Source of the DNA: Glaciozyma antarctica PI12
Lineage: Eukaryota; Basidiomycota; Microbotryomycetes; Kriegeriales; Camptobasidiaceae
Direction of reading: 5' to 3'
DNA length: 41,946 nucleotides
NCBI GenBank assembly: GCA_002917775.1
Contig: KZ627148.1
Location: forward strand, 1,746,833 to 1,788,778
The notes beneath the pieces were generated by a model. It was given only the letters and a program-made list of their open reading frames with translations, made no database searches and was not told where the DNA came from. The first letter of the stretch is position 1. Each line of letters begins with the position of its first letter. Positions 2,309 to 26,698 of this stretch are shown here, one piece after another. The translations under genes and the position numbers were made by a program.

Positions 2309-3681
2309 ATGAACAGCAACCAGAAGCACCACCGCCCTTCCCCGCCCTCCCCCCTCTCGTCAGAGCTTAGGTCCAACTCCTACACTGGTCCTCTCTCCCC
2401 GGCGGCTCCCAGCTCTCTCGTGCACATGAACGAGACCAACCCCTTCCAGTCAGCCCTCCACTCGGCTCTCCTCGACGAAGCGGAAGCAGCGGAGGAGGCT
2501 AGCGAACTCGAGGCCTACCGCGAGAAGGCCATCCGCAAGCAATCGCTCGAGGACAAGCTCGACGCTCTCGCCCTCGCCCACCCCTCCCCTTCCTCGAGCC
2601 GTCCTTTTGTAGCTGCACGGCCCGAGAGCCCCATTCCGGACGACCACGGTCTTGGCTGGCCAGGTGCGCTTCGTCGCGTCCTCATCCACTCTCGAATCTC
2701 GCGCTGATTTTTTTAAGAATGGCGCAGGCAAGGGCACGTTGACACGCTTGCACGAGACTCCGGCGCAGACGGCTGCGAGGCAGGCGAAGCTTGCGGATGC
2801 GGTGCGAACGGTGTTGGAGTGCATTGGGGAGGATCCGGAGAGGCATGGCTTGATCAAGACGCCTGACAGGTATGCGAAGGCGCTCCTGTGGATGACCAAG
2901 GGGTATTCGGAGAAGCTCTCGGGTGAGTCGCACCTCTTGTCGCTATGGGAGAGAGAGCTGAGACGAGCGCGTGCTGCAGATGTCATCGGGGACGCTATCT
3001 TTGCGGAGGACCACGACGAGATGGTGATTGTGCGCGATATCGATATTTTCAGCCTCTGCGAGCACCACATGGTGCCCTTCACAGGCAAGGTAAGTCCTTC
3101 GTAGTCTGCTCGCGCTGGCCTCCGCCCCTGCCTTCAATACCTCGCTGCATCTGTTCCTTCGTCCATCCCCGCTAACCCCGCTCTTCGCAGGTCTCGATTG
3201 GCTACATCCCCAACAAGTCCGTTCTCGGGCTCTCCAAGCTCGCCCGTATCGCAGAGACATTCTCGCGACGATTGCAAGTCCAGGAGCGGTTGACGAAGCA
3301 GATCGCTATGGCGGTAGACGAGGCGATTCGCCCCCTTGGAGTGGCCGTCGTTATGGAGGCTACGTGAGTGTCTTCCCTCCTCCTTGCTACGCTCCTCCCC
3401 CTTCCCCTTCCTTGCACACTTCCCACCGCCTATCCGCTCGCTGCCGCCATTCGCTCCCACCGCCTCCTGCGAACCAGACTAATTCTCTCCTTCCACAGCC
3501 ACCTCTGCATGGCGATGCGCGGCGTACAAAAGCCCGGAGCGACGACCGTCACTTCCGCCATGCTCGGAGCTTTCCGTCGCAGCGACAAGACGCGCGCCGA
3601 ATTCCTCGCCCTAATCCGGTTCGTCCCTCCCTCCCCCTCCTCCCTCCCTCGCTAACTCCCCACCCCAGAACCCCCCGCTAG
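2309..3681 (+). CDS. FOL2: GTP cyclohydrolase I
   Basis: Converts GTP to 7,8-dihydroneopterin triphosphate, the first step of folate (and biopterin) synthesis; cytosolic decamer in the family. Exons 2309-2663, 2728-2922, 2980-3089, 3191-3363, 3499-3618 and 3669-3681 sum to 966 nt (321 aa). The first about 120 residues are a low-complexity Ser/Pro and acidic extension. The catalytic domain starts near [12 protein letters not shown]. Visible motifs are the zinc-binding CEHH in [42 protein letters not shown], and [13 protein letters not shown] with the third zinc-ligand Cys. The start at 2309 is the first in-frame ATG; the frame is open further upstream but without another ATG. The protein ends four residues after the usual LIR terminus. 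Confidence 0.93.
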
Positions 3682-3986: not shown

Positions 3987-6436
3987 CTAGTCCCAGTAGT
4001 CTTGAGGCTCGGCGTCGTCGCGGTGGAGGAGGCGCGACCATTCGAGGCTGAGGCGGACTGTGGAGAGGAGAGCGTCAGATTCGTGTGAGGAGGAGGGGGA
4101 AGCGAGGTGGCGTACACATGTATGCTGTGAGGAGGGAGGAGGAGAAGAGAGTCAGCAAGCGATCGAAGAGGGTGCGAGCGAGAAGGAGGATGTACCAGCC
4201 ACTGCGAAGGAGTTGGTTAGCAAGGAGCCCCCGAGCAACGAGGCGAAAGAGACAGCTCACTGTCTTGTTTTCTCCACTGCGCGAGAGACGAACGCACAAG
4301 CGTCAGCTATACTCTCGCGAGCGGACGAAGAGAAAGCGCAACGCACATGATCCCTCGCCCAGTTCTTCCCGATGATCCCAATCCTCTGCGCGAGGTCCTC
4401 GTGCGCTCCTTGACCGTCGGGCGTACCGCGGAAGAAGGTCATGATGTCGTAGAGATCCGAGTAGTCGACCTTGACGGGGACGTAGCTGAAAGGGAACGTC
4501 AGCGCTCGCGCTTCGCAGGAAGGAAGAACAGCGCACTGAACCCAAGGCTGAATCCGATCGCTGTACCATTCCGGGAACAGAGTCGACTTGAGGACCGTAG
4601 CCTTCATCGACATGAGGCGATGGAAGCGCCCACTCCAGCCGTTCCCATCGACGTCCATGACATACTTGTACTGCGTCGCGCGAACCTCGTCAGCTCCCAT
4701 CGACTGCCTCCAGCGAAAGAGCGACGCACCCGGTACGACTCATCGAGCCCCATCGTCGGCTTGAAGTCGACGTTCTTGCGCATCCACTCGCACGTCACAG
4801 GATCGCACTGCACCGGTCCTCCCGAGAAGCTAGCGTCCATGTACGCCTTGTTCATCGCGCCGACGCTCATCTCCTCCTCGCGCATCTCCCCCTCCTTCTC
4901 CGACATCAAGACCTTCTTCCTCCCCGTCGTCTCGTGCGTCATAAAGTGCAGCCTGCTGCGTTGACTCGCTTGCCAATCGACGTCCTCCTCGAAATCGACT
5001 CCCGTCGTCGAACCGCGCCAGAGGAGCTTGTTGTACGGCTTTGAGGCCCAGTCGGGGTCGTAGCCGATGTAGGAGTCCGAGTACTGCTCGAGGGGAGTGA
5101 CGAGGATGTCGGAATGAATGTTGGTCTTGGCGAAGGTGAAGAGGGGGACGAGAGGGCCTGGGTTTGTGCCGACCGAGGTGGTGAAGCCGTGGATAGGCAT
5201 GATCTCGGGGTGCTGGCAGATGTCCATGGCGGCTTGGTGGTCGAAGATGTAGGAGCGCGACTTGGAGAGCTCCGTCACGTACGCGGGCGAGTGCGACTTG
5301 AACTTGGGGTTCGACGCCGAGAGGACCTCGTTTCCTCCTTCCTCGAGTGCGGCGAGCTCGACTTCGCGGAGAGACGAGTCGGAAGGGCATCCGTTCGCCC
5401 AGTTGGAGAGCTTCGCGTCGCCATCGCCGACGTAATCGGAAGGTCCAAAGTCTGCGAGCGAGCCGCCAAATCAGCTCCCACCCTTCGCAGGCCTGGTTCC
5501 CACTCACGGTCTCCCATCCCAGCCAACTCAATCATACGTTCTTTGTGAGCCCAGCCGAGCTGGCACGCAGGCTGGTCATGCCGCGTAAAGGAGAGCTTGA
5601 CGTCGCCGATATGCTTGCTGAACCGAGCAATGAGGTCGCCAGTGTCCTTCGCTCGATCCAGATGCGCGTACTCGCCCTGCAATCCGACGCGCCCGTTCTC
5701 AACCGCGATCGTAAACGTCTCCTCGCGCTCCTCCATATCCTTTACGCGATGCAAAAGGTCCGAAGGCTCCCTGCGAACGACGGCATCAGTCAGCTCTCGC
5801 CCGTCCCCAGCTCCTCTCCCGCGAAGAAGCAAGCACTCACAATGCCCAAAACGGCTCAAGGTCCTTGTGGATCTGGTCGTACTCGTCCATCAACACGATC
5901 CGGTTCGCCTTCGCGTACGTCCACCACTGATCGAAGCCCTTGGGCGGGTTCCTCGCGTACCTCCTCCTGTACTCCGCCGCCGCCTCCTTCAGAGTCCTAC
6001 TCTGCCTTGCGACCTTCTGCTGCCACAGCTTCTCCGCTCGCTGGATGAGAGTGAGGATAGGATGCGGTGCAGGCGCCTTGGCGAACGACGCGACGGGCTT
6101 GACGAGGAAGTGCCCGTTCGGATGGAACGTGTGCGGCGTGCTAATCTCCTCCTCGACCTCTCCGACCTCTTCTGGTGGTGGAGGCAGCCACTCGAGATCG
6201 TTCGAGCCGTCATCAGCGCTCGTGCTGTAGTAGTCAATAAAGTCGTGCAGTCGATCAGGGATGCGGTCGGGGATGGGGACTCCAGCGTTCTTGAGCACCG
6301 CGTGTGCTGCATTTCGGTTCGAGGCGGGGAGGAGGAGGAGAGTGACGAAGGCGAGGAAGACGAGGGTGCCGACCGTTCGCGGGCGGAGGCAGAGTGAGGT
6401 CCCAACGCGTCTTGCTACTCGCGCGCCTCCTAGCAT
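3987..6436 (-). CDS. GT90 (CAP10-like) glycosyltransferase A
   Basis: Type II membrane glycosyltransferase of the CAP10/GT90 family. Characterised relatives include cryptococcal xylosyltransferases acting in the Golgi on capsule and glycolipid glycans. Exons in reading order: 5841-6436, 5508-5770, 4730-5451, 4537-4670, 4347-4485, 4261-4276, 4196-4201, 4116-4124 and 3987-4057; 1956 nt, 651 aa. A signal anchor lies at residues 21-37 (TVGTLVFLAFVTLLLLP). Family motifs: RNPPKGFDQWWTYA, DEYDQIHKDLEPFWAL, KLLWRGSTTG, DVDGNGWSGRFHR and LFPEWYSDRIQPWVHYVP. Three consecutive tiny exons (16, 6 and 9 nt) rebuild the C-terminal stretch HWRKQDMAAYMFRLSLEW, which aligns with WEDLEAYQYRLLLEY in GT90-B. The true start may lie upstream: the frame is open and protein-like to about 6690 but lacks an ATG, so a 5' exon is probably missing. 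Donor sugar and acceptor unknown. Confidence 0.87.
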
Positions 6437-7036
6437 TGGCGTCTCGGGCGCAATGTAGGAAGGGAGAGAGTCGTACTCGCCCAGGCCGCGAGAGCCTGAG
6501 GCGGCAGCGCGTCTCCGGGAAGCCAGCTCGACGTCGTCCTGATTTGATCCTGCTGAGCGGGAGGAGAAGGTCGGAGAGGGAGGGTACTGGATGACCGCGT
6601 AGGAGGACCGCGGGGGGCTGCTGTCGGACTTGAAAGGTGCCAGGTTGGCGACGGTTGGAAGGAAGTGAAGAAGGAAGACAGCGTCGTCGTCGTCGTCGTT
6701 GCTCGCAATCTCGAATCTCGAGATTTACTCCCGGACTTGCCGCGCGAGCACGATCTTGATGAAGGGATTCGCGATGAAGCTGAACGGCCTGGTTTCTGTT
6801 CAGGGCGTCTCTGCGAGGGACAGGCGAAGACCTTTCTTCGCGCAAGTGCTGCGCGCGTCGCGCTAGCTGTGCTCAGTCCTTCAGCGAACATATGCCTCTC
6901 GTGCAAACGACCCCGAATCGCTCTCTCGCACAACTACAATGGACGAGAAGGAGACCCGGTTCGTATTACTGCTTTATAGATGGTTGCGTGGGAGGGACGA
7001 TAAACATGGGTGCCAGTCTTAGATCTGTCGCGGCGC
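6437..7036. other. 5' leader of GT90-A and 3' end of the mutase gene
   Basis: About 600 bp between two same-strand genes. The 6437-6690 part reads on the minus strand as a protein-like extension in frame with GT90-A (for example LGEYDSLPSYIAPETP just before the chosen ATG). It includes a (GTC)n/(GAC)n run at about 6681-6700 that would give an Asp tract. Upstream of that is a stop, so an unidentified first exon or 5' UTR intron is likely. Confidence 0.5.
6972..6978 (-). promoter_or_regulatory. TATA-like box, candidate GT90-A promoter
   Basis: TATAAAG on the minus strand, about 540 bp upstream of the chosen GT90-A ATG. The distance implies a long leader or an extra 5' exon, which agrees with the open upstream frame. 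The same heptamer lies upstream of the mutase gene. Sequence match only. Confidence 0.35.
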
Positions 7037-9314
<2,278 letters not shown>

Positions 9315-9798
9315 TGCTGAGACGAGTGGAGGCTGGTCAGGAGATGAAGGAGTGACTCGGTGAGAGTTGAGGGTGCTGCTCGGCGAGAGGAGGAGGGTGC
9401 TGGCGGAGGAGAGAGGTGAAGGGAGGAGAGAGAGGCTGGTCCAAGTCAATCTCGCCAAAACTCGCTGAGAGAGTCGATCGCGTTCATTTAGAGCCACGCG
9501 GTTTCCGCAGCTTCCAGGGCAGGCGCTTGCCTGCTCCGGCGTTCACCTTCAAGCTACTTTATACTCAAACGCCTCTCCTGTCACCAAGCTTGGCTGCACA
9601 AAGTCCTGCGTCGCCAGCCCCTCAACGCCGCAGAAGGACTCACTTTCGCCGACGTCGGCAATTCCTCGCTGTACTCACGTAGTACTCACGTAGATAGACA
9701 GAGCCCAGCGTCTATACGAAGTCTCAACGTGCTCGGCGAGCGCCCTGACGAAGGCTTTGACCCAGAAGATGAATGCGATTCCGCTCGCCGCGGAGCTT
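9315..9798. other. mutase promoter region / GT90-B 3' end
   Basis: About 480 bp between GT90-B and the mutase gene, both on the minus strand. It holds the TATA-like box annotated separately and otherwise only chance open frames. Confidence 0.55.
9557..9563 (-). promoter_or_regulatory. TATA-like box upstream of the mutase gene
   Basis: TATAAAG (minus strand) within GAGTATAAAGTAGC, about 240 bp upstream of the mutase ATG at 9314. It is identical to the box upstream of GT90-A. No transcript data. Confidence 0.4.
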
Positions 9799-12700
9799 CT
9801 ACACCTTGTCCCTCCGCAACTTCCCAGTCCACTCCGGCTCGATGAGACTGCGCGCAAAGGATCAGCACAAGTCACAAGCAAAAAGAAAGCGAGAGAGAAA
9901 GCGCACTCTTCTCCCCGGAAGTCGTTGCTCCCAGGCGAATCCTCGTCGTTATATAGCCTTCCGTACTCGAGAAGAAGTCTGCGACGACCGTCAACATCGA
10001 AGATTGAAGAGGCTGAAAAGAGAGCCACGCACCGGTACTGGTAGGCCTCGAGATCCTCCCAGCGATAGCATTCCCGAACCCACTCCTTCCCAGCCAGAGC
10101 GATCTCCTTCGCCAGCGCATCGTGCGCGCCTTCGCCATTCAGCCCACCTCGGAAGAATGCGAGGATGTCCCACATGTCGCTGTGAGAGAGGAGAGTCAGG
10201 AAGACAGCGGTGGTGTGAGCAGCGAAACGAGCGGACCTGTAATCGACCTGGGAAAGAGCTGCGAGTCAGTGATGAGAACGACCGAGGGCAGAGCTGTGAA
10301 CGCACCTGCATAGGAATGTAATGAAGCCAAGCTGCATCAGGAAGAGAGTCAGTTCCGGTATTCAGGTGAGCATGAAGGACGTACGAATAGCCCAGTCCTG
10401 CGAAGACGTGCGTTAGCGCGACAACTTCGAGCGAGCAAGAGGGATCACTCACGGTCCAGAACTCGGGGAACAGAGTTGCCTTGATGACAGCCGCATTTGA
10501 CCTGCGTGCCAAAATGAGCGGTGCGTTGAGGGAGAGCGAACGCGAACTCACATCATCAGACGACGGAATCGACCAGACCAACTGCAAAAAGTTCGACCGT
10601 CAGCGCGCTACTCAAAGCCGTGAAGAGAAGAGCTGACCTGTTTCCATCTATATCTGCGCAGAGAATTGTCAGCGAAGCGCACATCTCGCGAGCGAAATCT
10701 CGAACTCACCCAAAACAAACTTGTACAGCGACGCTCGATCGAAACTGATCCTCTTGTCGTACCCCTGGAACACCTCATACATCTTATCGCACGTCCCATC
10801 CTCCTGCACGCACTGCACCGCCGGTCCCACCATCCCCGTATCCAAGAACAGCGGATTCAGCCTAAAATTCGGCACCTCGACGACTCGCGCGTTATCCTCC
10901 TCGTCAGTAAGAACGATCTTGCGATCCCCGACCTCTGAATGCGAGAGGAGGTGCAACCGAGCTCGCTGCGTCCCCTTCCACGGCATCCACTTGTCCCACA
11001 GCGGTCCGCTCGTCTGCCCGCGCCACTGGAGCGACGAGAAAGGTCGTTCCTCCCACGACGGGTCGTGCTGCTGTTCGAGGTCGAGTTGCTCCGTGATAAG
11101 GCCGTGGATGTCGCCAAAAGTCTTCTGGACGCCTGGCGTGAGGAGGGGGAGGACGGGAGTAGGGTGGTGCTGATAGACCCACGACGTCGTCGCGTGGAAA
11201 TGGCGGTACTGAGGGTTTTCGCAGACGTTCATCGACGCTGAAAAGTCCTCGATTATCGCTCCGATAGAGCCTTCGACGAGAGGAGGCATCTCGAAGCCCG
11301 TCGCTCCCGCTGGAGGGTCGCCGTAGACGAAGTTGGGCTCGCGGACGGCGGAGCCGACAGGGCAGAATATATCCTGACCCCAGTGAGGTTCGGGGCCGAG
11401 TTCTTTCGGCCAGAAGGGAGGAGAGAGGTCGGAATCGTCTGTGCGAGGGTCGTCAGTTCGGGTTCTCGCTGAATGGGTTCTGAGCTCACATTGACCCGAG
11501 TTGGCGAGCTTCTCGAGGCGAGTACGTTCCTCGGCCGTGATAGAGATACGAGCACCGTCGTGTCCGTTGTAGACGAGCGTCATATCCGGCAGCTCGTGCG
11601 CGAAGCTCTCCATGAGTTCGGCGACGCCCCACGCGCGGTCGTGATTCGCGAGCTGTCCTTCGCGTAGGACCTTGCCGTTCTCGATGCGGACGATCCAGGT
11701 GACGTCCATGAAGCTTCGGTCGGCGAGGTGGGCGACGCGAGCGCGGAAGGTCGAGGGGGAGAAGGCGCGGTAGATGAGGAGATCTTGGTCGATGAGGTCG
11801 AATTCGTCGATAAGGAGGACGTTGTTCGCTCTTGCGAACGCGTACCTGCGACCGCACCTCAGTCAGCTCGCATTCCTCCCCCAAGCTGAGAGCAACGCAC
11901 CACTTGTCGAAGCCCTTCGGCGGTCGTCTCCCATACCTCCGTCGGTACTCCTTCACCGCCTCCGCAAACGTCTTACTCTGCCTGCCTTTCAGCGCCTTCC
12001 ACCTCCCCTTCGCCCTCTCCATGAGCGCAGGGATCGGATGCGGCTTCCCCTCCTCCAAGAGCATCCTCCCATCCTTCCTCGGCGGCGCAAGCGGGATGTC
12101 CTCTCGACCGATCCACGAGCTCGGGTTCCTCAGCGCATGGAACGTACTATCCCAAGGCGCCTGCTTCCCGCGCCACTTGATCGCGTCCGCCGCGCGCTGG
12201 GGAATGTAAGGTCCCACGGCGCCCTGCATGCGTCTCTTGACGCTCTGGCTCGAGGGAGAGGTCGAGTAGGTAAAGAAGAGGATGAAGAAGACGAAGGCGA
12301 GGATAGGGAGGAGCGGTCCACGGCGGCCCAGGACATAGAGAGGTCGGAGGAGGGCGTTTCGGAGGAGGATGACCGGGTGCGCTAGAGAGGCGCGACCTCT
12401 TCCGCTGGGATCTGGCGACGCGCCGAAAGGACGGCGAGTGGTGGGGAGGTGGGAGGGCTGAGGGGAGGAGAAGACCTTGGACCAGAGGCCAGGGGAGGCG
12501 GGGTAGATGCTGTTGTTCGAGTTGGAGATCTTGCGCTGGTGCGTGCCGCCTAAACGGGGGGAAGGGGCGATGCGAGGGGTGGAGGTGATTCGGGGAGAGC
12601 TCGAGTCGAGGAAAGCTCCAAAGGCGCCTTCGAGACGAGGAGACCTGTTGCCGCTGTCCGAGTAGAGAGGCTTGTCTGCGCGCAGGAGGTCAGCTCTTCC

Positions 12701-12801
12701 GCGGACTACCGCCAGCTCCTCTCCCTTGCTCCACTGGAGTTTGAAGGCTTACTTGGATCTACCGAAAGCTTCCCTTCACGTCCCAGTCCCAGAGGTGCCA
12801 T
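9799..12801 (-). CDS. GT90 (CAP10-like) glycosyltransferase B
   Basis: Second CAP10/GT90 enzyme, paralogous to GT90-A, predicted type II Golgi membrane protein. Exons in reading order: 12753-12801, 11901-12675, 11490-11845, 10710-11438, 10638-10653, 10552-10581, 10453-10501, 10385-10397, 10306-10331, 10237-10247, 10033-10179, 9907-9978 and 9799-9847; 2322 nt, 773 aa. A Ser/Pro-rich cytoplasmic tail of about 135 residues precedes one transmembrane helix (about 137-154). The catalytic region shows YGRRPPKGFDKW, DEFDLIDQDL, SLQWRGQTSG, DIDGNSWSGRFRRL, TLFPEFWTDWAI, WLHYIPMQVDYSDMWDILAFF and EDLEAYQYRLLLEYGRL. Internal exons of 16, 13 and 11 nt are required to keep the motif order. It is the first of three same-strand glycan genes. 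Substrate not inferable; conservation with GT90-A is clear but far from identity. Confidence 0.9.
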
Positions 12802-13437: not shown

Positions 13438-14898
13438 TCACTCCTCGCTCCTGCCCTCGCCGACCCTTTTCTCCTCCTCAAGCTCTTTAACCCTCTGCTC
13501 CATCTCCCTCCTCTCCCTCAACAGCCCCCTTCTGACCTCCCTCAACACGTCGACCTCCCTCGCAAGCTCCTCCCTCTCCATCCTCCCCTCCTCCTCCCTC
13601 CTCCCTGCCTCACTCCTCTCCCTCTCCCATCCTTTTTTCTCCTCCTTCAACATCCTCAGCTCCGCATTCAATTTCCTAAGCTCCGTATCCCGCTCGCGAA
13701 CGACCCCCTCAAGACGGGCGACTTCGGCCTCAGCAGCGTCCGAGGTCGATTGGCGCGCGGAGAGGTAGGTGCGGGGTGCGGAGGAGAATCCTTCGGGGGA
13801 GAGGGCGACGAGAGAGTGGGTTATTTGGGATGGGCGAGGAGGGGGAGAAGGACGGGCGGGAGTCGAAGGGCGGGAGGGGGAGAAGGTGCGATGGGCTGGA
13901 GAGCGAGGGAGGGTGGGGATAGGCTGATGCAGGGAGAAGCGGGAAGACGTAGCGGGACGGCGGAAAGGTTCAGGAGGACTGTGGGAGGGGTTAGAAGAGT
14001 TGAGGAAGGGAATGAGGACGGACTTGGGGAGGACGGGAGCTGAGGAGGCGACTGCGTTGGCGATGGGGAAGTCGAGACCGTCCGAGTCGAGCGCGGCGAT
14101 GCATTCTGCAATCCCAGCTTTCTCAGCTGCAGAGTGGTGGATGCTGCGAGAGGTCGAGGAGGTGGGGACTTTGAAAGGAGAGGGGATGTCGAGCTCGGGG
14201 CTGGCGTCGCGGGGAAGAGCTGGGGGAGCGGGATCTTCAATTCGAGGGGTCTTGGATTCGATGCGGTCTCCTTGCTGAAGTCGAGCTTGGATCTGTAGAG
14301 GTAGCTCGATGGAGGACGAGACTGAAGAGGGCGGGGGAGAGACTGGCGGACGACCTTGGGCTGGAGTCGGAGGAGTCGCGCTCCTAGCTCGCTCAGCGAC
14401 CACAGTCGTCTTATCAGGGATAGGGTTCCCATCCTCGTCTTCCTCTGGCAAAGTGAGCACCACCTTGTCCTCCTTCCTAGCGCGCTTCGCCTCGCTTGCT
14501 GGTCCTCCGGGAGGTTCGTCCCGCTTCTTCGACGGGATCAACGCGTCGTCCGCTGGGGGCTGGTGCTTGAACTTTTTGAGCTTGCTTTCCTTGTCGAGAG
14601 TGGAGCGAGAGGGAGAGGCTTGAAGAGGTGTGTGAGAGGTCGAGGCTGCGCGGGAATGGGGTAGTGGCGCGGTCTTGATAGCCTTCGGAGGGACCTTGGC
14701 AGGGACCTTGGCTGCTGGAGGAGGCTTGTTCGGTGCTGGAGTTGACTTCTTCCTGGATGCCTTCCGCTTGGGAGCCACCGCGACAGGGGCGGGAGGGTAG
14801 ACCAGCTGGGAGTCGTCCTCGAGCTCGTCGACTTCGTCCAGCTCCGATGGAAGAGGATAACCACGACTGTCGACCGGACCGTAGTTGTGAGGAGCCAT
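13438..14898 (-). CDS. unknown low-complexity protein with C-terminal coiled coil
   Basis: Single uninterrupted frame of 486 codons from MAPHNYGPVDSRGYPLP; an in-frame ATG 81 nt further upstream (14979) would add 27 less conserved-looking residues. Product not recognised. The N-terminal half is Lys/Pro/Ser-rich and basic with nuclear-signal-like clusters (PKRKASRKK, KKRDEPP, AKRARKE). The middle is Pro/Ser-rich. The last about 110 residues are strongly charged (E, R, L) and predicted to form a coiled coil, beginning near EAEVARLEGVVRERDTEL and ending near EGRSEE. This layout suggests a nuclear scaffold or chromosome-associated protein, but nothing fixes a function. It diverges from the EST1/SMG7 gene, about 230 bp away. 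The length without an intron is unusual for this window. Confidence 0.7.
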   Translation of the reverse strand: MAPHNYGPVDSRGYPLPSELDEVDELEDDSQLVYPPAPVAVAPKRKASRKKSTPAPNKPPPAAKVPAKVPPKAIKTAPLPHSRAASTSHTPLQASPSRSTLDKESKLKKFKHQPPADDALIPSKKRDEPPGGPASEAKRARKEDKVVLTLPEEDEDGNPIPDKTTVVAERARSATPPTPAQGRPPVSPPPSSVSSSIELPLQIQARLQQGDRIESKTPRIEDPAPPALPRDASPELDIPSPFKVPTSSTSRSIHHSAAEKAGIAECIAALDSDGLDFPIANAVASSAPVLPKSVLIPFLNSSNPSHSPPEPFRRPATSSRFSLHQPIPTLPRSPAHRTFSPSRPSTPARPSPPPRPSQITHSLVALSPEGFSSAPRTYLSARQSTSDAAEAEVARLEGVVRERDTELRKLNAELRMLKEEKKGWERERSEAGRREEEGRMEREELAREVDVLREVRRGLLRERREMEQRVKELEEEKRVGEGRSEE

Positions 14899-15126
14899 CT
14901 TGGAGTCGCGAAGTGGGGAGAGAACAAGCGACGTCGGAGCTGGAGGAGCTGGACGTCCGAGTCGTGTGGCCCACCTCACTTCTTCGCCTTTCGCCCCTTC
15001 CCTCTCGACTTCTGCAGGGATCCTTTCCTAGAGACAACGAGGAATGCCAACCTCAGAGTAACCCCCTCCTCACTCGCGCTCCCTCACCTCGGCTCCAACC
15101 AGTCAATCCGCACACCACCCACGACC
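14899..15126. promoter_or_regulatory. shared divergent promoter
   Basis: About 228 bp separates the ATG of the coiled-coil gene (minus) from the ATG of EST1/SMG7 (plus), so both promoters must lie here or overlap the genes. No TATA box or recognised operator was seen. Confidence 0.4.
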
Positions 15127-17702
15127 ATGCAACATCTCTCGCGCCCAGCAGGCCAGGCCCGTACGACGCTGAGGAAGGAGACAACCAACTCGGTCATCAG
15201 GTGCGCTGCTCGCTGAACGCCTGGGGAAGGAGACGGAGCTGACGCGTCCCGGTCCTCTCTCCGTGTTCAGGGATGCCAAAGGCCTCAGTCTCGAGCTCAA
15301 GGCGATGCTCAAGAGGAAGGACCTCTGGGACAGGGAAGTCGAGTTTCAGCGTGCAGCGTAAGCCCTCTCTTGTTGCCAGTGCCGAAGACCCAAGCCGACC
15401 CACCCTCCGAGCAGTCTCCGGCAGGCTTACCTGCACATCATCTTCGCCCCCCACGTCCCTACGCGCTACTCGGCCACCGACGCTCTCACCACTACTCCCT
15501 CTTCCCCCGTCAAGACTCCCTCAACCTCCCACACCTCGCGCCTCCTCGACGTCCTCAACCTCCTCTGGCTTCAAACGAGCCATGCGGTGATCCACGTCTA
15601 CCGCGCCAAAGTCGCCGAGATGGAGAAGGCGATCGCTGAAGCTCCGAATGCTCACCGTGGAGGACGAGGTCGCGGAGGACCGGCGGGAGGAGGGGGAGGA
15701 GGACGATCGAACAGCGCTCCGGGGCCGACGGCGAGGAGGCGCCTCATCCACTCGTTCAGGACGTTTCTCGGCGAGGAGGAGGAGTTCTTCAGGACCTTGC
15801 TCTCCCGTCTCGCGACGAGCTTGCTTCCTCCCGACCTCGCGGGCCTGCGAGCGCTCGGAGTGATGGTCTCGCAGGCGCAGCCGAACGACGGGGAGGAGCG
15901 AGAGGAGCTGAGTCCCGAGGAGAAGCTCACGCGGAGGGCTGGAGCTGTCCCGCTCGCGCACAAGGCCTTGATCTGCTTCGGCGATCTGGCTAGGTACCGC
16001 GAGCTGTACAACGAGCCGGGGGCGGGAACGCCCAACCCCGTCGCAGGAGGAGGAGGGAGGAGGGACAAGGGCGCGAAGGGAACGAAGGGCAAACCCGAGG
16101 GCGAACGCAAGGTCAAGAACTGGTCGAAGGCGGCGGAGTGCTATCACCAGGCGCGACTGCTTCTGCCGGACAATGGTGCGCCTTCTCCTCCTTCCACGGC
16201 TCGTGCGCCGTCGCTAACGATGTATCGCAGGGAACCCTTCGAACCAGCTCGCTGTTCTGGCGCAGTACGCCAACGATCCCCTCTCCTCGACCTACCACTA
16301 CTACCGCGCCCTCTCCGTTCGCTCGCCATTCCCTACCGCGCGAACCAACCTCGACATCACGTACGCCAAAGCCGTTTCTCGCTGGTTTAGTGAAGGAGGA
16401 GGAGAGCCCGAAGGCGACGAAGGAGTCAAGTTCCGCGCTGCGTTCGTTGTACTCCACGGGTTGTTCTTCATCAAGGCGAGGTGAGTCGCAACCGCGTAGT
16501 GCTGCTACGAGGAAATCTGACGCCCTCGTACAGGACTGAAGACATCCCTGCGCTCTCGGTGAGAGTTCAAGAGCTCTTCTACGCGTCGGTCGAACAGCGG
16601 CTCCTCTCCTCGGACATGATCGTCAAGACGGTCGTGACTGGCCTCAGTGCTCTCTGGAATGCTCGCATGTTCCGGTCGGGTACGTACCATTGCGTCTTCT
16701 CCCTGGTTTCCCCGCCTGACTCGTCTGAGCAGCTTCGACGCCCGCCGGCCAAGACGGAACCAACCTCCCCTCCCCTCCCATCAACCTCGAACGTGATCTC
16801 CTAGTCCACGTCCTCTCCTTCTACCGCATTCTTCTCACCATCGGCACCTCGGAAACCAACGAACTAGTCGCCTCGAACCTCGCTTCCAAAATTGACACCT
16901 CCTCCTCTCTCGCCCTCAACATCAGCGCCGTCCTCCGCCGCACGCTCCCCGCGATGCGTATCCTTAGCAAATGGGTCATGGGCCAACTCGAATACATCCC
17001 TCGCGTCGAAGCGCGCATCGAAGCGCACGGGAACAAGGCGGTCGAATCGGCCGACAGCAGCGTCGATCCCTCGGTCAGCCTTGCGAGCGTCCGCGAATCG
17101 CTGAGCGCGTTCTGGGCTTCGTACGTCGCGTTCGCGAATGCGATGCAGGTCGCGTTCCCGCCTTCGCGGCTTCCGAACGCGTTGGACGGAGGCGTGTTCC
17201 TCGAGGAGGATGTTGATATGCTGGGGTTCGCGCCGTTGAGGATTAGGGGGACCAAGGAGGGGAGTGGTGGGGCGATGGGAGTGCCGGTGGAGATTGAACG
17301 GGTTGGGAAGGACGTACATCCGAATGAGGAGCAGCTCATGCGGATTGCGGATGTGCAGAGTGATGCCGTGCTGGTGGCGGCTGCGGAGGTGAGTCGAGGC
17401 CGGGCCAAGTGGAGGGGAATGGGAGCTGATGAGCTTGGGTCCTGCGCGCAGACTTCGCCAATCTCGCTTGTCGACGGAAGGTTCGTCGCCAACGTCGAGA
17501 AGAAATCTCTCGAATCGTCCGACGCTCGCGATGCCGCTGTCAGTGGACGACCTGTCGGCATCAACTTGATCCAACCTATCGACGACCAGGCGATCGAGGA
17601 TGATGACGAGTTTAGCTAGGATGATGAGGAGTTAAGCGACGGAGGACGATCCGGTCGATCTGGCGATGAGGGTCGCGACGGCCGATCGCATGGTTATGGA
17701 TG

Positions 17703-24295: not shown

Positions 24296-26698
24296 CTACG
24301 TCGTAATCAACCCAATCAGCCTAAAGTGCGTCTTCCGACTCGGATGCGACGACTGAGAACTCGGCAACAGCTCAAACGACACCGTATGAGGTCCCGCCTC
24401 GATCCCACCAAACGCCTTATGCGGCACCCCAATCGACCAACCCAAGTCCCACCACCCTGCGATGATCTCTCCTTTCGATTTCTTCCCGTCGACGTCTGCG
24501 GGGAGTGTGAGTGGGGGAGAGGAGGAGGAGAGGGAGGACGTACAGACTAGGACGTTGCCGAGGTCGTAGAACCGGCTACGGAGGAAGTCGACGAGGATCT
24601 CTCCGCCTTGTCCGATTACGACGTCGAAAGTGACTGTCGAGCCGGGCGTGTCGGCAGCGAGGTACTCCTTATCTCGTGCCCACGCGTACTTGGTCCAGCT
24701 GCGCGAGAAGGCGGTCAGTGTACTGCGAAGCGAGAGGAGCGAAAGACGTACCCAGAGTTACGCGAGGGGTCGATAGTCGTCCGAGAGTTCCCTAGCTGGA
24801 TGCACGTCGGTGGAGGGAGGGCGAAAGCGTCCGAAGTGGTAGACGAGGAGTACTGATCGAATAGGGAGCGAAACGGCAGTGCGAGGACGCCTTCGTCCTT
24901 CCTACTCCGCACGTCGAGCTCCGGAACGAGGACCATCGGCCCGCCGCTCTGCGCGATCCGGTTACTCGCGTTCCGCTGAATCGAAGCTTGGACGAGGCAG
25001 GATTGTTGCTCGAGGTACGAGATGAGGATATCGGCGAGGAGTTCGTGGCCCCATTCGTTCGGGTGGTGAAGGTCGGGAAGGAAGAGGTCCTCGATCTTGG
25101 TCGTCGAGCTGGGGAGGATGCCGGGGGTAGGACCGAAGAGGGATTGTTTGGCGGAGAGGATGGGGATGTCGTAGAATTGTGCGGCGGGGAGGTGGAGGTA
25201 TTCGGCGTTCGTGGTGAAGGACGAGGTCTGGGCGAGGAGGAGGCTGGCGGCTTCGAGGATGACGATGGCGGGGGAGGAAGGTAGGGCGCGGAGTGTACGG
25301 AGGAGCTTCTCGAAATCTCGAGTCGCTTGCTCGGTTTGAGGCCAGACGTCGTTGACCCCAAACTCGAGGACGACGAGGTCGGGACCGTTGCCGATCTGGA
25401 GAAGCGTGTCCTTCCCTCGTAACTCCATATGCTCCTTGTAGCAGTAAGCGAAAAAGGCGGAACCAGTCGCCGACTTTGCGACGTTGACGAGCCGACTCGA
25501 AGGCCACTTTGGAATCGTCTTGCCCTTCTTTTTCTTCGAGGCGGCCTTCTTCTTCGCCTTTTTCGACAGCGCACGCTTCGCTTGATGAGTGGGTGGTTGA
25601 AGGAAGGAGCGGTCGGCCAAGTCGGCGAGGTCGGAGGAGGGATCGAGTTGGAGGAATTCGATGGAGCGCTTGGAGAGGGGACTGGTCGTTGCGGCGCGGT
25701 CGTTGAGGCGGAGGGGACCAGCTGTAGTTCGACTGGGGGAGGAAGGCGGGAGAGGAGGGTCGCTTTCCATGGGAAGAGTGCGCTGAAACCATCGCAGGAC
25801 GTGCGAATGCCAGCAGGTCTTCCAAGGATCCACTCCGCGACAGTTCGAGACTGCACAGGGCATTAGCTCCCACTCCCTCTCCGCCATAACGTAAACTCAC
25901 CTGATCCTCCCAGCACTAAGATCCTGAACGGCTCCTCATCCTCCATAACGACCCTCGCCGAGTCTGCCACCGGTCCCTCGCGTAGTCGCTTCGCTCCGTA
26001 CAGACTGCTCTTCGCAGCTCGGGCCAAAATCCGCTGCACCTCGCTCCCCGTTCCGGGAAAGAGTACTGCACGCTCGAGGATAGTCGGGTCAAAGGTCGGG
26101 GAGGAGAGGTTGAGAGCGTATCTAGCGTGAGTCGGTAGAGGACGCGTCGAGGCGCAAGAGTAGGGAAGGAAAGCTGGCGGATGTTGAGAGTGGAAGTAGG
26201 CGGGTGGTGGTGGAGGTGGAGAGTGAAGAACTGGTAGCGTATCGGCGTCGTCCTCAAACATGTCCTCCGGTAGCTCGTCCTCGCCTCCCTCGCCTTCAAC
26301 GGTGGATCCCTGCGATTCCTTCTCCTCCCCACCTTCCACCTCTTCAGGTTCCTGAGGATCGTAGTCCTCCCCCTCTTCCTCCTCCTCGGTCACCTCCTGC
26401 GTGCGCGTGCCTCGAAAGGAGTCAAAGTCGAAGTTGGGCATGGTGATATCGGAACGCGTGTAGCTGAGGGCGTCGGAAGAGCTGAGTCGCGCCGTGGCAA
26501 GCACGCATGCTGTTACCACCAGGGCAATGAGGAAGAGGGATCTTGGACTGCAAGGCACGGGGGTCAGAGAAAGCCAGTGCGCGACGCGGGAAGAGTAGCT
26601 CACGTTTGCAGCCGGGAGCGCACAGGTGAGTCCCAGAGGTGCACACCGGAGCCGGTCCTCCGTCGCGGTGTCGGCGAGGAAAAGGACGCCGACCGCAT
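24296..26698 (-). CDS. membrane-anchored SGNH/GDSL-type hydrolase
   Basis: Predicted type II membrane protein of 731 aa with an SGNH-hydrolase core (esterase or acetyl-ester family). Exons in reading order: 26604-26698, 25901-26547, 24752-25850, 24544-24698 and 24296-24495; 2196 nt. A membrane helix follows the Arg-rich N-terminus at about residues 34-52 (RSLFLIALVVTACVLA). A long acidic linker (EVTEEEEEGEDYDP) comes next. The catalytic blocks are LVLGGSVSN with the nucleophile Ser (about residue 247), FGVNDVWPQ (block III), and PDLHHPNEWGH supplying the Asp/His pair. A Lys-rich segment (KKAKKKAASKKKKG) lies between blocks I and III. The nucleophile codon lies at an exon junction. The C-terminal about 120 residues (WTKYAWARDKEYL to IGLITT) look like a beta-rich domain. 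A role in de-esterifying cell-surface glycans would fit, but substrate is unknown. Confidence 0.78.

Follow-up and report, generated by a model that had tools for sequence, protein, structure and literature searches.

Fungal GT31 glycosyltransferases form a broad family, and both Cap10 and Cxt1 of Cryptococcus belong to another, GT90. A known galactofuranose (Galf) transferase of Aspergillus, GfsA, is a GT31 enzyme whose structure is available as Protein Data Bank (PDB) entry 8YRL (PMC11538602). In Cryptococcus, the polysaccharide GXMGal bears Galf on its galactan and xylose on its side chains; the excerpted account of its synthesis by Cxt1, Cxt2, Ggt2 and Cgm1 identifies Cxt1 and Cxt2 as beta-1,2-xylosyltransferases, names no Galf-transferase among the known enzymes and describes no clustering with the gene for UDP-galactopyranose mutase (UGM) (PMC12493134). 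POGLUT1, an animal GT90 enzyme, works by inversion, as a review states. The UDP-Galf pathway is consistently present in Pucciniomycotina in a survey of nucleotide-sugar enzymes (PMC8092308), and a UGM is therefore expected here if the genome belongs to that group. Three further papers mention related proteins. A UGM spot appears in a proteome of Rhodotorula mucilaginosa under copper stress (PMC6436437), a single putative CAP10 and a single CAP59 are named for R. graminis (PMC4585186), and a CAP10-like gene of R. toruloides is tabulated among mutants affected in lipid accumulation (PMC5922974). Literature searches found no paper treating UGM and CAP10 together in a basidiomycete, and among the papers listed no basidiomycete cluster of galactofuranose-glycan genes was seen.

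The locus described here lies in a window of 41,946 bases (C3:1746833-1788778), the whole stretch of DNA that was analysed, which is part of contig C3 in a 19.98-Mb assembly of 18 contigs and has a G+C content of approximately 0.57-0.65. Within positions 3987-12801, three apparently intact, intron-rich genes on the minus strand encode a first GT90 enzyme (GT90-A), UGM and a second GT90 enzyme (GT90-B), with UGM in the middle and gaps of 484 and at most 600 bases between the genes. The gene models were spliced at GT-AG introns, each giving a complete reading frame, and together with Pfam and PDB matches they confirm the minus-strand order GT90-UGM-GT90 proposed in the initial annotation. The enzyme set itself is ordinary; the layout is unusual, and is explained in part by the concentration of GT90 genes on this chromosome arm.

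The UGM gene (7037..9314, minus strand) is of the UGM/glfA type and comprises 14 exons encoding 499 residues. A first model of 502 residues was corrected at one splice site by comparison with the Aspergillus fumigatus enzyme, with exon 6 starting at 8805 and three residues removed. The closest solved relative is A. fumigatus UGM (PDB entry 3ute; 758.8 bits and E-value of 2.4e-227 with the 502-residue model), to which the protein aligns end to end (residues 5-501 with residues 10-500), and this full-length similarity to a characterised fungal enzyme identifies it as a eukaryotic UDP-galactopyranose mutase. A stretch of 22 residues and the stretch SRGRFGS are conserved between the two. The protein shows nothing notable that sets it apart from 3ute; the differences lie in the gene, which is divided into 14 exons and flanked by GT90 genes on both sides. 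From its sequence, the enzyme would make UDP-Galf from UDP-galactopyranose. UGM was found at a single place in the whole-genome search, and a UGM search of viral contigs for synteny gave no match.

GT90-A (9799..12801, minus strand) has 13 exons and 773 residues, and GT90-B (3987..6436, minus strand) has nine exons and at least 651 residues, as counted from a conservative ATG at 6436. Both CAP10-type glycosyltransferases match PF05686 (Glyco_transf_90) above the curated cut-off of 24 bits (60.9 bits and E-value of 1.4e-16 for GT90-A; 71.3 bits and E-value of 9.3e-20 for GT90-B). The N-terminus of GT90-B may reach an ATG at 6891; eight intron joins between this ATG and the main frame were found, none with the branch-point word sought. 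The long N-terminal tail of GT90-A leads into a hydrophobic stretch that, judged by eye, looks like a type II signal anchor (approximately residues 136-156). The two proteins are 35% identical over 537 aligned columns, and are thus distinct paralogues, as the initial annotation had stated.

GT90-B matches the POGLUT1 structure (PDB entry 5l0r) with an E-value of 7e-11, and POGLUT1, POGLUT2 and Rumi can be aligned with its C-terminal part as well as with a profile built from seven GT90 sequences and exons of this genome. The motif WRG is invariant in the alignment of the GT90 proteins of this genome. The window enzymes share the PF05686 domain and WRG with the GT90/CAP10 family, to which animal POGLUT1/Rumi and Cap10 and Cxt1 of Cryptococcus belong, but differ in an N-terminal tail with a signal anchor judged by eye. 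In a non-significant stretch of the alignment (i-E 3e+02), the HD of GT90-A (YNGHDGA) and of GT90-B (FTRHDQP) stands opposite NVRD of POGLUT1, which contains the catalytic Asp133; this numbering was mapped via the WXGG positions in PMC7803782. By analogy with the family, a xylosyltransferase role is possible for a window GT90, one not tied to UGM.

The genes on either side of the trio, assessed by a Pfam scan of ten flanking frames, include no sugar gene (0/10; three without any Pfam match), and no epimerase or GT31 gene adjoins the trio in these flanks. The left neighbour is an exon of GTP cyclohydrolase I (2613..3104, plus strand; PF01227, E-value of 1.4e-22), which is not a sugar gene, followed farther left by a tyrosine phosphatase, a WD40 protein and a deoxyhypusine synthase. 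On the right lies an open frame of 529 residues without a Pfam match (13438..15027, minus strand), and then an EST1/SMG7-like gene (15362..17613, plus strand; frames 15362-16390 and 16735-17613; PF10374, E-value of 2.1e-17, and PF10373, E-value of 6.5e-5). A GDSL-like lipase/acylhydrolase frame, barely above its Pfam cut-off, is located 12 kb to the right of the trio (24727-25830, minus strand).

Genome searches with the GT90-A and GT90-B sequences found eight GT90 genes, six of them on C3. The counts are lower bounds, with at least eight in the genome; a Pfam genome search by itself returned only two places, because introns split the genes, and a weak match of GT90-A on C9 (E-value of 0.0086, N-terminal tail only) was excluded. 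The C3 loci are at 1327, 1384, 1541, 1751-1753 (GT90-B), 1757-1760 (GT90-A) and 1943 kb, and the other two are at 285 kb on C17 and 276 kb on C1. The six C3 genes span 617,519 bases (C3:1327570-1945089) toward the end of a contig of 2,001,196 bases that makes up 10% of the genome. Under the assumption that genes are placed at random along a single line, and with the figures computed after the pattern had been seen, the probability of six of eight on C3 is 2.4e-5; with the adjacent pair counted as one locus, it is 1.8e-4 for five of seven on C3, and five of seven fall within the observed span in 8.25e-5 of simulated draws. The C3:1.33-1.95 Mb stretch also contains two of the six CAP59/GT69 genes (P of approximately 0.013). 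Of the four loci of the control family GT15, one is on C3, at 74 kb and outside the GT90 stretch.

The nearest paralogue of GT90-B is the gene at C3:1943 kb (51% identity over shared columns), and both trees pair these two while placing GT90-A apart, with the C1 and C3:1541-kb genes; the trees were built from GT90-B-anchored fragments, with weak support for several branches. GT90-A is 26-37% identical to every other GT90, with GT90-B nearest by a small margin (37%). A recent tandem duplication across UGM was accordingly rejected, the two being 35% identical and GT90-B nearer the C3:1943-kb gene (51%) than GT90-A (37%). Going by these sequence identities, the pair may have an ancient tandem origin. 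Segmental duplication was also rejected, as no gene family is common to the flanks of the GT90 loci, the matches between loci being two weak ones (E-values of 2e-4 and 5e-4) and a protein kinase. The MAT locus of Cryptococcus carries a CAP10 homologue; a link with the mating locus was rejected here, the STE3 match being on C15 and not on C3.

Around the other six GT90 genes, 30 (28 + 2) of 175 coding-like segments were scanned with Pfam, the GT90 segments being counted in the 175, and these 30 contained no sugar-nucleotide enzyme or other glycosyltransferase. Matches were obtained for 11 of the 30 (PH, Sec7, TFIIS/SPOC, N-SET, TGT, Nop14, NUBPL, abhydrolase, PRMT and two kinase pieces), that of Nop14 being below its cut-off. 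At C17:279-292 kb, two inverted paralogues (L043 3291-5578 and L044 4015-6421) enclose a NUBPL-like frame together with the GT90 gene of C17, a layout with a paralogue on both sides that loosely mirrors that of the window. Neither has a Pfam match over the cut-off, and one frame is also without a PDB match.

Candidate Galf-transferases were sought in the genome with the profile PF04646. Matches lie at C3:280.8 kb and C14:925.8 kb and, below the family cut-off, at C13:207.7 kb. In the PDB, the exons at C3:280.8 kb and C13:207.7 kb match nothing significantly but GfsA (8YRL; E-values of 4.4e-7 and 1.2e-7, respectively), and both keep the motif LHHW, whose first histidine would correspond to the metal ligand His379 when placed via the glycines of motif IV. 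The gene at C14:925.8 kb has similar motifs by eye. In common with Aspergillus, the genome has GT31 exons matching 8YRL besides one UGM; these genes are remote from UGM, and GfsA-like by sequence only. The nearest, at C3:281 kb, is 1.47 Mb away, and the others are on C13 and C14. A genome search for GT31 with the Fringe profile PF02434 gave no match, which does not show absence. The profile PF01762 found a C16 gene that matches B3GALT6 best in the PDB, its ten matches up to an E-value of 10 not including GfsA, and a marginal match at C3:316 kb (E-value of 0.009), where there are no frames of 400 residues or more. The galE-like matches number 11 at seven places, none on C3 and none over the family cut-off as single exons.

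The upstream regions of the three genes were compared for signs of co-regulation. The word TATAAAG occurs at 9557..9563 (minus strand), approximately 245 bases before the UGM ATG, and at 6972..6978 (minus strand), between the UGM stop and GT90-B; these are the only copies on either strand across the 41,946 bases, and at least two copies were reached in 7 of 100 shuffles. The initial annotation had placed this box upstream of the mutase and of "GT90-A", and both boxes exist, the gene it called GT90-A necessarily being the downstream GT90 (3987-6436). Chance would give the three upstream regions 21.75 common 6-mers and 2.17 common 7-mers; they have 20 and eight, respectively. The eight 7-mers are four words together with their reverse complements, a number that 12 of 300 simulations also reached, and no 8-mer is common to all three regions. 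The GT90-A and GT90-B regions have one common 10-mer, with its reverse complement, and six common 9-mers; 30 and 17 of 200 simulations, respectively, reached these numbers. The excess of 7-mers and of words common to the GT90 pair is slight, and a common promoter motif of the trio was rejected as evidence.

We consider it probable that the window samples an old GT90 array, scattered along one chromosome arm, inside which UGM lies by chance or under weak selection. An ancestral array would have expanded on this chromosome, and within-chromosome rearrangements would then have scattered it, with UGM coming to lie inside. The UDP-Galf would most likely be used in the Golgi by GfsA-type GT31 enzymes encoded elsewhere, and GT90-A and GT90-B would probably be Golgi type II inverting transferases that, judging from the family, most likely take xylose as donor; they would act on wall mannan or exopolysaccharide and not necessarily together with UGM. 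Since the family is concentrated on one arm, the fact that a GT90 gene adjoins some other gene on it says little about a joint function. Against a layout by chance, a named gene would have a GT90 on both sides with a probability of approximately 1e-6 if eight GT90 genes were placed at random and approximately 5e-4 given six in the C3 stretch, both post hoc figures that assume gene counts and density. The common strand and short spacings would equally suit a selected cluster. Such a small functional cluster, in which the UDP-Galf from UGM goes into a Galf-bearing polysaccharide built by at least one flanking GT90, as a Galf-transferase or as another transferase on the same chain, strikes us as unlikely. 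It would account for the adjacency on one strand, the single UGM copy found and the intactness of both GT90 genes; the inverting action described for POGLUT1 makes a beta-Galf product chemically possible, and Galf and xylose occur together in GXMGal (PMC12493134). However, the GfsA-type GT31 genes are present and none is near UGM, the 30 segments scanned, out of 175 around the other GT90 genes, include no sugar gene, and the trio has no convincing common promoter motif. Because GfsA-type genes are present elsewhere, no GT90 is needed as a Galf-transferase, though one could still have a role with Galf; we know of no GT90 that uses UDP-Galf. That one window GT90 is in fact a Galf-transferase or Galf-chain transferase kept beside UGM by selection, which would make the locus a galactofuranose-glycan gene cluster of a basidiomycete, appears very improbable.

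Selection or chromatin might instead keep the capsule-type transferase genes (GT90, GT69) and UGM together on this arm, short of a tight cluster, which we regard as improbable, more so than the functional cluster. Six of eight GT90 and two of six GT69 genes fall within C3:1.33-1.95 Mb while the single C3 locus of the GT15 control does not, and the GT69 genes could reflect a glycan-rich arm rather than the history of one family. The GT69 excess is small, however, the galE-like and GfsA-type GT31 matches lie outside the region, and the support spans only a few families. The scattered array with UGM inside it remains the preferred reading. Of the initial annotation, the enzyme identities, paralogy and layout stand; its proposal of a shared pathway finds nothing beyond adjacency in its favour, and is weakened by the arm-wide concentration of GT90 genes, the remote GT31 and galE-like matches and the want of a convincing motif.

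Conservation of the GT90-UGM-GT90 order would indicate enzymes acting on basidiomycete galactofuranose glycans, and a window GT90 that proved to be a Galf-transferase would open a route to the missing Galf-transferase of basidiomycete polysaccharides. A useful outcome is a small set of putative Galf-transferases of this lineage, the three GfsA-like GT31 genes away from UGM, which their sequences make candidates. These genes lie at L051 1501-2022, L053 1501-1842 and L052 approximately 1027-1788. The open frame on C16 (L049 1042-1953) carries a Galactosyl_T match, B3GALT6-like, and an EOS1 match side by side.
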